Notes under the pieces: generated by a model
The model's database searches: none
Seen by the model: only the letters and a program-made list of their open reading frames with translations
Told to the model about the DNA's origin: nothing
DNA from: Chamaesiphon sp. 341R_metabat_111
GTDB taxonomy: Bacteria > Cyanobacteriota > Cyanobacteriia > Cyanobacteriales > Chamaesiphonaceae
DNA: 45,403 bases
Direction: 5' to 3'
Assembly: GCA_025351825.1 (NCBI GenBank)
Contig: JANXVE010000119.1
Span: 1-45,403 of the forward strand
Made by a program: the position numbers and the translations under genes
In this document: positions 40,297-45,267 of the stretch, piece after piece
Position numbering within the stretch: the first letter of the stretch is position 1
Layout: each line of letters opens with the position of its first letter

Positions 40297-42168
40297 CTAA
40301 CTCGATCGCTTGGGGTTTGCCAGTCCTAACATTTCGGCGTTAGATTTACCTGCGGCTACCATTGGGTAACAGTTTTCGTTCCGCTTGACTTGAGCATTGA
40401 GGAGCACGGGACCATCATGGGCTAGCATCTGGGCGATCGCATCTGGTAGATCTTCGCGATTGTCAACTGCCATTCCCTTGATGCCATAAGCCTGGGCTAA
40501 CAGCATGAAATCGGGCTGGGAGGGTGCCATTTCTGAGGAAGAGTAGTTTTCCTCATAAAAGGCTTCTTGCCACTGTCTGACCATCCCTTGCCAGCCGTTG
40601 TTGATAATCACGATTTTGACGTTCAAGCCGTAGTGTTTGAGGGTGCCGAGTTCCTGAAGATTCATCTGGAAACTGGCATCGCCACTGATACAAATGACTT
40701 GCTCGTTGGGAAGTGCCATTTGGACACCCATTGCAGCAGGTACGCCAAAGCCCATCGTGCCTAGTCCTGCGCTCGAAATCCAGTGACGCGGGAGATTATT
40801 GAGAAATTGCGCTGCCCACATTTGATGCTGTCCGACATCGGTGGTGTAGTAAGCATCGGGTGCTTGAAGGCGACATTCGACGATTACTTCTTGGGGTGCG
40901 AGTAAACCTTCATAGGTAGGGGCAACCAGGGGATTGTCTACGCGCCAACCATCGATCGTGTCCAGCCAAGGTTTCGTCAGGGTGGAATTACGACCCAATC
41001 CTAGTTCCTGCACTCGTTGAAGGAGTTGAATTAATACTTGTTTGATATCACCAACGATCGGTACGTCTGGAGTCCGATTTTTGCCAACTTCGGCTGGATC
41101 GATGTCGATGTGGATTACCTTGGCGGTAGCCGCAAATTCGTCGAGTTTACCAGTGACTCGATCGTCAAATCTAGCCCCAACAGCGATCAGCAGATCGCAA
41201 TCAGTTACTGCCCAGTTTGCATAGGCGGTGCCGTGCATACCCAGCATCCCGACGGAGAGCGGATGAGTTTCATTAAATGCACCTTTGCCCATCAGGGTAG
41301 TGGTAACAGGGATTTGAAATAATTCGGCGAGTTGTTTGATTTCGGCATGAGCACTGGCAGAAATCGCGCCGCCACCAACGTAGAGCAGTGGTTGACGACT
41401 ATCTGCGATCAGTTTAACTGCTCGATCGATTTCGGTGAGGTTGCCTTTGACGATCGGAGTGTACCCAGGTAAATTGACGCAACCAGGTTCGATCGGAGTA
41501 TAGTCGCACAACATTGCGCCGACATCTTTGGGAATGTCGATCAGGACGGGGCCAGGGCGACCAGATGCCGCGATGTAGAAAGCTTCTGCGACAATTCGGG
41601 CTAGATCTGCGGGGTCGCGCACGATATACGAATGCTTGACGATTGGCAGTGTAATTCCATAGATATCTGTCTCTTGAAAAGCATCAGTACCGATGAAATA
41701 ACTAGGGACTTGTCCAGTGACAACTACTAGCGGAATTGAGTCCATTTGGGCCGTGGCGATGCCTGTAACGAGATTTGTAGCTCCAGGGCCAGAAGTTGCA
41801 AAACACACGCCTACCTGTCCGGTTGCGCGGGCATAGCCATCAGCGGCATGTGCGGCACCTTGCTCGTGCCGCACCAGAATATGTTTGATTTTACCTGCGG
41901 CTTCAAATCGATAGATTTCGTCATAAATCGGCAGGATCGCGCCACCAGGATAGCCAAAAATATGTTTGACTCCATGACGGTAAAGGCTATCCAGTAGCGC
42001 GTAGGCTCCAATTTGCCGTTGGGATTGGGGTGGAGCGATTGCCTGTAAGTTTGGTGATGACTGGTTAGTTGCTACTTCAAAGACACGTTGAGAAACCACG
42101 GAATAGACCTCGGATGGGGGACTGGGAGACTGGGGGACTGGGAGAAGCACATGGATGATAGCCACCAT
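40297..42168 (-). CDS. ilvB: Acetolactate synthase large (catalytic) subunit
   Basis: First common step of branched-chain amino acid synthesis: condenses two pyruvates, or pyruvate and 2-oxobutyrate, with ThDP, FAD and Mg. The catalytic glutamate is in [16 protein letters not shown]. The middle FAD-binding domain follows, then the ThDP/Mg motif [20 protein letters not shown]...NN near the C-terminus. The start is uncertain. The ATG at 42168 puts repeat-like DNA (CCCAGTCCCCCAGTCTCCCA) into the coding region, whereas a GTG at 42099 (giving [15 protein letters not shown]) has GAGG 8 nt upstream and looks more natural. The small subunit ilvN is not in this window. Confidence 0.95.
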
Positions 42169-42282: not shown

Positions 42283-43662
42283 TTGACTTTCAATCCCGAA
42301 TTATGTCGAAATGAAAGTGAAGTTGAAAGCAAACTGATCGTTCATTACCTGCTTCCAAAACTGGGTTACTCTCCCGATACATGGCATCAGGAGGTAAAGT
42401 TTGGCAAGATTAGATTGGATTTCCTGGCATTTACTCAAAAATTGCCCTTGACATCAACTCCTCGCTCTTCAGTGGGTTTGGTAATCGAAGCCAAGAGTCC
42501 ACGTCGGAATTTAGATAAGCACGTTTCTCAACTTCGCAACTATTTAACTAGCTTAGATATTGCTTATGGATTGTTGACAAATGGCAAAGAATTAAGAATT
42601 TATTATCAATCTCTAGGTAAATTACAATTAATATTTAGATGTGCTGGGAAAGATATTGACGATCGATTACCAGATATAATTCAATTAATTGGTCGTGATT
42701 TTATCAAAGAAAGGCTACAACTACCAGAATCATTAACACAAGTCACACCCAATCCTATTGTTGCTAAATATTGCAGGACATTATCGATGAAAACTATTGC
42801 TATCTATCACAATAAAGGCGGTGTCGGTAAAACGACAGTCTCGACTAATCTAGCTGCTGCTATGAGCAAAAAAGGCTATCGGGTGCTACTAATTGATATT
42901 GATGCTCAGGCGAATAGTACTTTTGCCACAGGTTTGGTAAAATTTCAATTTGAAGAAGAAGATGATTTGCGCGATCGGAATATCTGCGATCTGATTAGTA
43001 GTGCTGAGAAGAATTTTGTTGGTGAAATAGTTCGGACATCTCAATATTTCAACAATCCAGAGATCGATGTCATTCCAGCACATATTAATTTGATCGATAA
43101 GCAGAGCGATCTGACAACAGCGATGGCAAGTCGAACGAGATTATTAAACAAACTCAAGCACGTTAATAATATCTATGACATCGTAATCATTGACACGCCA
43201 CCGTCTCGCGATATTTATGCTGAAGTTGCCCTGATTACCGCTGATTATCTAATCATTCCCTCCGATCTCAAACCATTTGCCAACCAAGGTTTACCTACTG
43301 TCAAAAATTTTATTAAGGATATCAATGAAAACCGGACAACATTTGGCAGAAAACCAATTGAGTTGCTTGGAGTATTGGCATCAAAAATATCTACTAACGC
43401 CCGATTTATCCAATACACGTTTCCCAAACAGCGCGATGTCATCGGCAAGCGATATGAGATGCCGCTAATGGAATCAGTAATTTACGATCGAACTGCCTTA
43501 TCTGAGTCATTTAACAAAACCATCGTCGTCGGCGAGGTAGAATATCCAGATCCTAAATCAATCTTTAAATACGCTGACGAGGTGAATAATGCCGCTCAAA
43601 CATCTGCAATGGAATTTGATATCTTGGCAGAGGAAGTTTTAGCTAAAATTGGGTTAAAGTAA
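42283..43662 (+). CDS. Nuclease-like (HSDR_N/PD-(D/E)XK) domain fused to ParA ATPase
   Basis: A 459-residue two-domain protein. Residues ~10-150 resemble the N-terminal endonuclease-like domain of type I restriction enzymes. They show NESEVESKLIVHYLLPKLGY, D46 in IRLDFLAF, E69-A-K71 in GLVIEAKSP, and the QLRNYLTS element. The second part starts at an internal Met169 (MKTIAIYHNKGGVGKTTVST), a full ParA/MinD deviant Walker A. The VLLIDIDAQANST segment and Walker B IVIIDTPPS (D304) follow. The protein thus joins a restriction-type nuclease fold to a partition ATPase. The start is a TTG at 42283 without a clear Shine-Dalgarno; no in-frame ATG exists upstream before the stop at 42247. It is coupled to the ParB-like gene (1-bp stop/start overlap). 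Confidence 0.85.
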   Translation: MTFNPELCRNESEVESKLIVHYLLPKLGYSPDTWHQEVKFGKIRLDFLAFTQKLPLTSTPRSSVGLVIEAKSPRRNLDKHVSQLRNYLTSLDIAYGLLTNGKELRIYYQSLGKLQLIFRCAGKDIDDRLPDIIQLIGRDFIKERLQLPESLTQVTPNPIVAKYCRTLSMKTIAIYHNKGGVGKTTVSTNLAAAMSKKGYRVLLIDIDAQANSTFATGLVKFQFEEEDDLRDRNICDLISSAEKNFVGEIVRTSQYFNNPEIDVIPAHINLIDKQSDLTTAMASRTRLLNKLKHVNNIYDIVIIDTPPSRDIYAEVALITADYLIIPSDLKPFANQGLPTVKNFIKDINENRTTFGRKPIELLGVLASKISTNARFIQYTFPKQRDVIGKRYEMPLMESVIYDRTALSESFNKTIVVGEVEYPDPKSIFKYADEVNNAAQTSAMEFDILAEEVLAKIGLK

Positions 43663-44570
43663 TGATTAAATGTTATTTTGTCGATATTAAGGACATCAGC
43701 TCAGACTTACCTAGATCGCATTTTATCAAATCAGATTTAGAACAGCTAGCAAATCTAATTTTGGCAACTGATGGATTGATCCGTCCGTTAATCTTGAAAA
43801 AAAGCGGTGAAGAGAAATATACCGTAATTGAAGGGCATCGAGAATATTATGCAGCCCTAATAGCAAAGGAGAAAAATAGTAGCAAAGCCGAAATGGTTAA
43901 TGCCTTTGTGATTAATCCTAATATTCAAGCATCTGCGATCGAGCAATTACAGCTATTAAGAGAAGATCGTTCTCCTATAGTTATACCAGCTCCTACTTCT
44001 TCAGGTATCGAGCAGCTACTACCAGCATTATCAGCAGCAATCTCTCAACAAATTCAACCATTAGTAGAGCAAATTGCCCAGCAGCAAAAGATGCTAGAAG
44101 CACTGATGCTCGATCGTGCTGCGCCTTCACCTGTTCCGGTAGCAAAAATTGACAAGCCAGATTTACCTAAGCCAGAAGATCCTTTACCAATTGCTCCTGC
44201 TGTGGTAGTTAAACCTGTGAAAGTAGTAGAACCCAAACTACCTAAGCCACAAAAAGCAGAGAGATCTAAGCCAGATAAAACACCTAAAGCTACATCTAGC
44301 AAGAAAGTGGCTAAATTACCAGAATCGATCGATCCAATTAAGGCAACAAATACCCTCGATCTGATTAATACTCTTAGTCAAGATGATTTGATCTTTAAGA
44401 TGGAAAGATCTAAAGTATCAAAAGCTGCAATTAAACTAGTACCAGATATTATCATGGTTCGCGATCGTCAGCCAGGTCGAAAATTTGATACATGGGAAAC
44501 TGTCGTTGATTTAAAAATCAAGGGGCTGGGAGCTAAAATAGTCGAAGGAATTATTGAAAAGTTAAAGTAA
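43662..44570 (+). CDS. ParB-like N-domain protein with coiled coil and C-terminal HhH-like segment
   Basis: A 302-residue protein translated from an ATG that overlaps the upstream TAA (TAATG). Residues 1-75 match the ParB/Srx-like N domain: GLIRPLILKK and the box VIEGHREYYAALIA. The usual Arg-rich ParB box is replaced (GHREYY). Residues ~105-140 form a Gln-rich coiled coil (ISQQIQPLVEQIAQQQKMLE), and 140-215 a Pro/Lys-rich linker (KPDLPKPEDPLPIAP). The end (FDTWETVVDLKIKGLGAKIV) looks like a helix-hairpin-helix DNA-binding motif. There is no ParB central HTH. Its partner is the nuclease-ParA protein; the product is probably the DNA- or partner-binding component. Confidence 0.75.
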   Translation: MIKCYFVDIKDISSDLPRSHFIKSDLEQLANLILATDGLIRPLILKKSGEEKYTVIEGHREYYAALIAKEKNSSKAEMVNAFVINPNIQASAIEQLQLLREDRSPIVIPAPTSSGIEQLLPALSAAISQQIQPLVEQIAQQQKMLEALMLDRAAPSPVPVAKIDKPDLPKPEDPLPIAPAVVVKPVKVVEPKLPKPQKAERSKPDKTPKATSSKKVAKLPESIDPIKATNTLDLINTLSQDDLIFKMERSKVSKAAIKLVPDIIMVRDRQPGRKFDTWETVVDLKIKGLGAKIVEGIIEKLK

Positions 44571-44581
44571 AGTCGATCGCA

Positions 44582-44633
44582 GCGATATATCAAGTAGGGG
44601 CAATTCATGAATTGCCCCTACTTGATATATCGC
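44582..44633. terminator. Perfect 52-bp palindrome between convergent genes
   Basis: Two 26-bp exact arms (starting GCGATATATCAAGTAGGGGC) are centred between 44607 and 44608 on TCATGA. It lies 11 bp after the parB-like stop and about 30 bp before the stop of the J-domain/TPR gene on the other strand. It can end both transcripts, although the T-run is weak. The core GTAGGGGCAATTCATGAATT is, as I recall, a dispersed hairpin common in cyanobacterial genomes. Confidence 0.7.
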
Positions 44634-44664: not shown

Positions 44665-45267
44665 CTAACTTAATTGAGTAATGCGATTGAATGCTCGATC
44701 GACTTCTTGCCATAGTTGTCGATTGTGAGGATCTACCTTGAGAGCCTTCTTGAGATAGATGCGTGCCTTATCAAACTCTCGGTGCTGGATTAATTGATGT
44801 CCGTATTGCGAATAAATAATCCCTTGCCATTGACAAACTTGGGCATCCAGAGGATTGTGATGAGCTAATCCTTCAATTAACACGATCGCTTTGAGAAACT
44901 GTTGTTGCTTTAGTAATGACTGCAATTCATAATATAATTGCCACTTCAATTCATCCTCATTCTTCTTCGCTGGATGAGTTTTCGCTGGTGGTGCGTCGCG
45001 ACGAGTGGTGCAGGCAGGTGCGGGAGAGCTGACTGGAGTCGCTGGAGCTGTGCGAACTGAATGCGCCTGAATTTTGCCGAGTAATACTTGATAAGCTTCG
45101 TTTAGAGCGATGAAACGTTGAGAGGCATCGAGATCGCCTGGATTGAGATCGGGATGAAATTTGCGGGCTAATGAACGGTAAGCAGCTTTTAGTTCATCGA
45201 GAGATGCCCCTCGATATATCCCTAATAACTGATAACATTTGTCCAGACTTATGGTGGATGCAAGCAT
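44665..45267 (-). CDS. J-domain protein with TPR-like C-terminus
   Basis: A 200-residue protein. The N-terminal J domain (about residues 8-66) has [20 protein letters not shown] and the HPD tripeptide in [21 protein letters not shown] Pro/Ala-rich linker (70-105) follows, then tetratricopeptide-like helices (about 108-195) such as [20 protein letters not shown] with [14 protein letters not shown]. It probably recruits DnaK to a client or membrane partner. The TPR type is typical of cyanobacteria, but no specific role is known. The next 136 bp to the window end hold no supported gene. Confidence 0.85.

Follow-up and report, generated by a model that had tools for sequence, protein, structure and literature searches.

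ParA/ParB pairs have a known role in the transport of DNA and cellular cargo, and ParA proteins of type Ia (the P1/F type) carry in addition an N-terminal DNA-binding domain with a winged helix-turn-helix (HTH). Here we describe a two-gene unit in which a ParA-type ATPase is fused to an N-terminal domain resembling that of a restriction nuclease and is coupled to a ParB-like gene. The unit was found in 45,403 nt of DNA from the cyanobacterium Chamaesiphon sp. 341R_metabat_111 (contig JANXVE010000119.1, hereafter the window, which is contig C76 of a 4.06 Mb genome in 202 contigs). The fusion is encoded by an open reading frame (ORF) of 459 aa on the plus strand (42283-43662) with a TTG start, found also in the three near relatives inspected (L126, L127 and L129), and the ParB-like gene of 302 aa follows on the same strand (43662..44570). 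The coordinates and coupling given in a preliminary description of the window were correct, as the two ORFs overlap by 1 bp with base 43662 common to both.

Compared with ParABS systems (Soj/Spo0J, plasmid ParA/ParB), the unit has the same deviant-Walker ParA with a Soj-like fold and the same kind of downstream gene with a ParB_N-like domain. It differs by the N-terminal nuclease-type domain of the fusion, by a patchy occurrence that is not consistently near dnaN, and by a partner which among the matches listed is without an HTH, mostly lacks the arginine of the ParB/Srx superfamily and ends in helix-hairpin-helix (HhH) or Rho_N/SAP modules. When this arginine is taken as the mark of a ParABS protein, the family as a whole falls outside, while the window protein taken alone falls inside. 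With type Ia ParA the fusion shares the presence of an extra domain in front of ParA, but here this domain is of PD-(D/E)XK type with conserved catalytic residues, and not a winged HTH. HsdR of type I restriction is similar in its HSDR_N_2/HSDR_N match and its D..ExK residues, whereas the fusion has no helicase domain above cut-off and no HsdM or HsdS adjoins it in the window, which speaks against type I restriction-modification at this locus, to which the comparison is confined. ParB/Srx-superfamily domains joined to nuclease function have been described, for example GmrSD (ParB-like plus HNH), in two papers (PMC5512222, PMC12839542). The link between such a domain and a nuclease is thus common to GmrSD, the nuclease-armed ParB/Srx conflict proteins treated there and the present unit, but here the nuclease-type and ParB-like domains sit in separate proteins and it is the ParA ATPase that carries the former. 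Among the NCBIfam matches listed for the fusion (best 25 of 40) there were only generic models below cut-off, the partner had no match in PADLOC-DB 2.0.0, and no description of a nuclease-ParA fusion was found in the open-access PMC literature, though one may still be in print elsewhere. The two-gene unit does not match any known family of defence or partition systems.

Relatives of the N-terminal domain were detected in 54 of 292 cyanobacterial genomes, of which 38, with that of the window among them, hold close relatives (group 1) and 16 hold distant ones (group 2). The domain covers residues 1-150 of the fusion (42283..42732, plus strand), and its proposed PD-(D/E)XK relationship held up in profile searches. 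Residues 17-107 match Pfam HSDR_N_2 at 26.8 bits (cut-off 25), and this marginal score of a single sequence is not due to chance, since 21 of 21 N-domains taken from the two deep groups match HSDR_N_2, and 20 of the 21 also HSDR_N. D46, E69 and K71, which had been named as the motif residues whose conservation should be tested, are invariant in 38/38 group 1 rows, 16/16 group 2 rows and the plasmid relative L039, and E11 is equally invariant in the same rows; the remaining row of this alignment, L083b, is a helicase-ParA fusion without the nuclease-type domain. The putative catalytic set, with plus-strand codons at 42313 (E11), 42418 (D46), 42487 (E69) and 42493 (K71), is also complete in 49/49 rows of alignment A5. 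In a third group (group 3), matched in eight of the 292 genomes (one gene being split in G083, one having stops in G289 and one match being weak in G280), the equivalents E41, P75-D76 and E92-x-K94 are invariant in 8/8 rows. The group 3 N-domain aligns with those of groups 1 and 2 in hhalign (probability 97.5, E 5.4e-12); Pfam gives no HSDR_N match for the group 3 member scanned (L121). The AlphaFold2 model of the window fusion has a mean predicted local distance difference test (pLDDT) of 82.4 and shows the N-domain elements in the order helix, ExK strand, helix, strand. The ratio of nonsynonymous to synonymous substitution rates (dN/dS) of the domain was 0.09-0.32 in six pairs. A search of PDB sequences with the N-domain profile returned no nuclease, but the repeat protein 7ue2 (no stretch of which is significant alone) and weak matches such as ISWI (E 0.035). 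By its Pfam matches and conserved residues the N-domain is of PD-(D/E)XK type, of the HsdR_N branch, with the D...E-x-K residues and a helix glutamate as its putative active site, and it is a predicted nuclease.

A linker (42733..42786, plus strand; residues 147-166 are modelled at low confidence by AlphaFold2, pLDDT <50) leads to the ParA-type ATPase domain, residues 169-459 (42787..43662, plus strand). That this is a complete ParA was rightly noted before: residues 169-350 match Pfam AAA_31/ParA at 181 bits, and the fold is Soj-like, the Foldseek matches listed for the fusion (best 50 of 1333) being ATPases of the ParA/MinD/NifH superfamily, Soj/ParA structures included. The Walker A motif KGGVGKTT occupies residues 178-185, and K178, K183, T184, D205, D207 and D304, which include both Walker A lysines and the acidic residues, are present in 49/49 aligned rows; dN/dS is 0.03-0.24 in six pairs. 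The suggestion that Met169 is a preserved ParA start was not borne out, as the position is M in 36/38 group 1 rows and usually S, A or G in the group 2 set. A separate ParA of about 294 aa, which forms a clade of its own in the ParA tree, often adjoins group 1 and group 2 fusions (L043, L045, L052, L054, L056, L060, L061, L089 and others). In one genome (G121, L083:4079-7974) a group 1 ParA domain stands in-frame after the AAA_12 part of an SF1 helicase, and the gene preceding this ORF has the AAA_11 part along with sub-cut-off REase_MTES_1575/DUF559 matches.

The next gene had been described as having a ParB-like N domain, and this agrees with a Pfam ParB_N match of 36.2 bits in the window protein (cut-off 26.3), its sole Pfam match at E 0.01, and with matches of PF02195 (ParB_N) to 39/39 ParB-like proteins at the same E. 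The domain comprises residues 1-101 (43662..43964, plus strand), and over about the first hundred residues the partner model resembles Noc/ParB structures in Foldseek. Position 60, which we take to be the arginine of the ParB/Srx pocket box, is F in 30, L in six, R in two and C in one of the 39 proteins, the two with arginine being the window protein (R60) and its close relative L126. No HTH family was found for the 39 partners among the matches listed (25 families, Pfam, E 0.01). With the arginine mostly replaced and no HTH in these matches, the partner does not look like an ordinary ParB family member by its sequence. A long coiled-coil-like helix is predicted in the AlphaFold2 model at residues 113-153 (43998..44120, plus strand), and the C-terminus forms a helical HhH-like module, residues 225-302 (44334..44570, plus strand), whose type varies among relatives. 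The HhH-like segment previously seen in the window partner is there, but it is only one of at least two types in the family: among the matches listed for the 39 proteins DUF655 occurs in eight, HHH_6 in five and HHH_3 in one, and Rho_N and SAP in four each. The C-termini of the window partner and many others match neither HhH-type nor Rho_N/SAP families of Pfam at E 0.01.

These C-terminal modules are exchanged. The loci L052 and L056 are near-identical in the fusion (ParA dN 0.006) and in partner residues 1-100 (dN 0.022), whereas their partner C-termini are of different type as judged by eye from the sequences. L072 and L075 show the reverse pattern, a near-identical middle region of the partner and a diverged ParB_N part. 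The partner dN/dS is 0.26-0.74 in the four measurable pairs; the highest value (L052/L056) is inflated by the aligning of unlike C-termini, and two other pairs are at 0.30 and 0.50. In many loci of one genus, g9, there is downstream of the group 1 pair a gene for another ParB-like protein (about 360 aa; e.g. L041:12272-13366), which has sub-cut-off ParB_N and Rho_N matches and is nearer to a group 2 partner.

The fusion could have proved unique to the window, and it did not. A single open frame of at least 449 aa is found in 49 of the 54 genomes, the gene being short, split or cut in the remaining five (G286, G080, G013, G121 and G060). The ParB-like gene is present in 36 of 37 fetched group 1 loci, the exception being at a contig end (L067), and beside 15 of 16 group 2 genes (exception L082). 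Among 84,980 species genomes the group 1 N-domain has 225 relatives, and the best 80 of these 225 are all cyanobacterial; several Chamaesiphon genomes are among the closest named relatives at the fusion locus. An intact fusion abuts a ParB-like gene in 70 of these best 80. The other ten consist of four at or near a contig end without a partner match (L131, L148, L165 and L201), five with a shortened fusion frame (L128, L132, L145, L155 and L156) and one in which the genes overlap beyond the limit set (L158). The occurrence in 54 of 292 genomes together with the 225 relatives in the species collection rules out chance or an annotation artefact. It should be noted that the scan of genomes from other phyla used group 1 alone, and that beyond the Cyanobacteria group 2 was sought in plasmid and phage records and group 3 in plasmid records. 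The genome of the window itself holds a second, very divergent fusion, of group 3 (L121 9981-11429, G000:C62), with its own partner of 178 aa (L121:9393-11429 region).

The group 1 N-domain gave no relatives in viral contigs, which speaks against a phage-borne system for this group. A wider N-domain profile matched four loci in viral contigs, and halophage matches in another search are annotated as methylases or hypothetical protein. In plasmids the group 1 N-domain matched eight records, where the annotation is N-6 DNA methylase or HsdR N-terminal protein; with the full-length fusion only one of at least 5000 plasmid records reached 80% coverage, the match spanning two separate genes, and the full-length group 2 fusion had no match above 80% coverage in either plasmid or phage records.

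In one cyanobacterial family the fusion is found behind an anchor gene that is present in 57 of 59 genomes. We read 46 of these 57, 40 in the slot count and six fetched separately, and the 40 counted slots hold group 1 in 30 cases, group 2 in three, a remnant in one and no system in six. Within one genus (g35) and between the same two flanking genes, group 1 is found in G255, group 2 in G157 and G321, and no system in G315; the flanking genes of G315 and G321 are 96.5% and 98.2% identical, G315 being the one of the six system-free slots for which the same right flank was demonstrated. The slot thus has alternative alleles and an empty state, and at another locus as well group 1 (L060) and group 2 (L089) are found amid the same neighbours. 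Copies of a palindromic repeat flank the module on both sides in G321 and are replaced by a single stretch in G315; recombination between palindromic repeats could plausibly have brought the module in or removed it. In three system-free slots (G262, G306 and G129) genes within a few kb match ATPase, TPR or helicase-type models of PADLOC; as those models match broadly, a hotspot is no more than hinted at. The slot of G262 contains an AAA ATPase resembling HEC-01A/AbiLi/PtuA models together with two small genes (L247:3952-6383).

A link to a phage came from the ParB-like family profile, which matches PDB chain 9k3a_B, a 1717-residue 'tail protein', with E 2.7e-9. ORF27 of Anabaena phage A-4L (NC_024358; host in the record Anabaena variabilis) has the same length of 1717 aa and contains the matched sequence, its ParB-like domain being encoded at L260:6986-7285. 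In a reverse search of the 292 cyanobacterial genomes a 100-residue piece of ORF27 gave matches in 32 (E 0.01 per genome), of which 31 are the ParB-like gene of the present system, nuclease-less loci included, and one is a different frame of 775 aa. The best of the 31 is in G024, and many of the others are weak, with E values of 1e-4 to 6e-3. The ORF27 domain scores 37.8, 22.9 and 21.2 bits to three group 1 partners, and at most 5.1 bits to six canonical ParBs and to the group 2 and group 3 partners tried. The sole PHROG match of ORF27, 'ParB-like partition nuclease', is at residues 1543-1715, outside the ParB-like domain. The ORF27 gene is flanked by genes for an M23 peptidase and a tail fibre; in the gene order of T7 a large ejected internal protein is encoded at a comparable position, which makes it plausible by analogy that ORF27 is injected together with the phage DNA. 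The Dar proteins of phage P1 are reportedly a virion-linked defence against restriction. The ORF27 domain may act as a decoy, it may turn the nuclease against the host by activating it, or it may have been borrowed for an unrelated use. Like the DdrB-like polyvalent phage proteins, ORF27 is a large protein of the virion region with a ParB-like domain; it differs in that its nearest relatives found are the cellular partner of this system, whereas the ParB-like domains of injected 'polyvalent' phage proteins are described as lacking an association with ParA (PMC5512222).

We suggest that the unit is an immunity-type module in which the ParB-like recogniser and the ParA motor direct the nuclease, likely against invading DNA such as a phage or a rival plasmid, and we give this reading an even chance of being right. 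It is preferred because the system is patchy, has alleles at one site, exchanges modules, has a less constrained partner and has a phage-borne relative of the partner domain; we also count in its favour the invariance of the putative catalytic residues in groups 1 and 2, with their equivalents in group 3, and two Nostoc plasmids that have the fusion in addition to ordinary ParA/ParB pairs. The partner would read a feature of the DNA, and so choose the target, by binding it through its exchangeable C-terminal module of HhH or Rho_N/SAP type, and would engage the ParA-nuclease by a contact of its ParB_N-like domain. ATP-bound ParA would then dimerise or assemble on the recognised DNA, so bringing together PD-(D/E)XK domains that cut it, and the outcome would be removal of the invader. 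Further, we speculate, tentatively and expecting to be wrong somewhat more readily than right, that this is a new DNA-targeting immunity of cyanobacteria in which a recogniser with interchangeable modules loads a nuclease-bearing ParA, and that A-4L injects a mimic of the ParA-facing domain of the recogniser to counter or hijack it. If true, this would explain why a virion-region protein has a ParB-like domain. A nuclease-type ParA fusion with an exchangeable partner and a phage relative would show that partition machinery has also been turned to conflict, and the unit is a concrete and testable candidate immune system in cyanobacteria, where phage A-4L exists and transformable Anabaena strains are available. 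Of the functions listed in the preliminary description (defence, plasmid partition or addiction, DNA processing), the evidence leans towards a role in defence or conflict, with partition kept as a possible second.

A number of results weigh against such an immunity module. Residues 35-63 of the fusion, including D46, are modelled at pLDDT <50, and no nuclease is found among the best 50 of 1333 Foldseek structures. PADLOC-DB 2.0.0 gives the fusion partial matches only, in the ATPase region (best PDC-M28B, E 7.5e-9) and weakly in the nuclease region (mad2, E 0.006). No defence island was seen, the recurrent neighbours recognised by eye being of housekeeping types, though no systematic neighbour scan was made. 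The phage link is to one phage, as the group 1 partner L045 searched against 50,697 phage records (E 1e-3) has only two matches, both A-4L records, and exact peptide patterns of the ORF27 domain occur in viral contigs in A-4L itself only; nor does Pfam ParB_N match ORF27 at E 0.01. Group 1 is present in 27 of 27 g9 genomes (23 + 4), therefore the system can be stable, which is not the picture of turnover. What speaks most strongly against a role based purely on the nuclease is the existence of forms that lack it. A group 1-type ParA lacking the nuclease domain is found with a ParB-like gene in G011, G213, G111 and G123, in more divergent form in G247 and G151, and in G019 just upstream of the fusion of that genome. 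In the ParA tree these forms nest inside group 1, and the starred branches force at least five label changes; the tree leaves out three of 100 domains (<230 residues), frames broken before the Walker motif never entered it, and L083 is labelled fused, though its extra domain is the helicase part. From these sequences, ParA and the partner therefore appear to have outlasted several losses of the nuclease domain. Four of the seven genomes with a nuclease-less ParA (G011, G247, G151 and G019) also hold a fusion elsewhere or next door, so the fusion may help the nuclease-less forms in trans.

Those nuclease-less genes that keep their partner, the constancy in g9 and the mere pairing of ParA with a ParB-like gene are what would be expected from a modified partition or DNA-positioning system, in which the two proteins would segregate or position DNA. 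The nuclease-like domain would then be an accessory that either binds DNA, as a substitute for the N-terminal domain of type Ia ParA, or resolves tangled copies. The plasmids add to this, with the reservation that PLSDB annotation is incomplete. The 12.6 kb plasmid ABRG53g of Pseudanabaena has no annotated ParA-type ATPase other than its group 3 fusion, which is beside the replication protein CyRepA1, and on pLBA of Leptolyngbya boryana a group 3 fusion is found with a terminase gene and no other annotated ParA; both again tell against immunity. The pLBA record (L256/L258) is of 77.8 kb and is possibly a phage-plasmid. Other plasmids are less in need of the fusion: pPg_01 of Pseudanabaena galeata has another small ParA-type ATPase gene about 1 kb from it (30.5 of 225.6 kb read), unnamed10 of Nostoc UHCC 0870 has one ordinary ParA/ParB pair beside its group 3 fusion, and unnamed4 of the same strain has two such pairs and ParM beside a distant L039-type fusion. 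From this ParA content, fusion-based partition is plausible on some plasmids and superfluous on others.

Against partition stand the full catalytic set under strong constraint, the presence in 54 of 292 genomes only, and the partner family with its arginine in 2/39 and no HTH in the matches listed. Distances to dnaN, a marker of the origin, range from 1.2% to 49.2% of the contig with a median of 19% in 20 genomes, thus an origin-proximal chromosome partition is unsupported, though seven of the 20 loci are within 10% against four expected by chance. We agree on these grounds with the earlier view that the arrangement is not a standard partition one. A private centromere was not found either, as no repeat was common to six stretches of five loci compared by eye for a parS-like site. 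Directly downstream of the ParB-like gene there is a perfect 52-bp palindrome (44582..44633), but its 26-bp core is found 14 times in the genome, spread over 14 contigs, hence it is a dispersed repeat and no private centromere; it may nevertheless be a bound site. All in all we regard partition as unlikely, although it is the alternative that has to be taken most seriously. The nuclease-less forms, the constant presence in g9, the neighbours of housekeeping type and the plasmids with the fusion as their only annotated ParA are the reasons why partition keeps this standing and the immunity reading is put no higher than even.

Group 3 is found in five plasmid records, all cyanobacterial, two of them being the same-sized L. 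boryana plasmid. This, and the coexistence of the fusion with ordinary ParA/ParB on the two Nostoc plasmids, could also be explained by a device for competition between plasmids or replicons, an exclusion or incompatibility weapon that was repeatedly moved into chromosomes. Osa and other ParB/Srx proteins are described as acting in plasmid conflict (PMC5512222), but many members of the present system are on contigs of several megabases, and we think this explanation improbable.

The genes around the pair in the window are a TPP-enzyme gene of acetolactate-synthase type before it (40297-42168, minus strand) and a DnaJ-TPR gene after it (44665-45267, minus strand). Apart from some that were scanned against profile libraries, the neighbouring genes were identified by eye from the first residues of their products. 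The housekeeping types so recognised, along with the relative that stands in-frame after the AAA_12 part of an SF1 helicase, would suit a chromosomal enzyme for DNA repair or processing, with ParA as an ATP switch and unrelated to invaders. Such an enzyme is difficult to reconcile with the patchy presence, the alleles and empty sites and the phage homologue of the partner, and it is the least probable of the explanations considered here.

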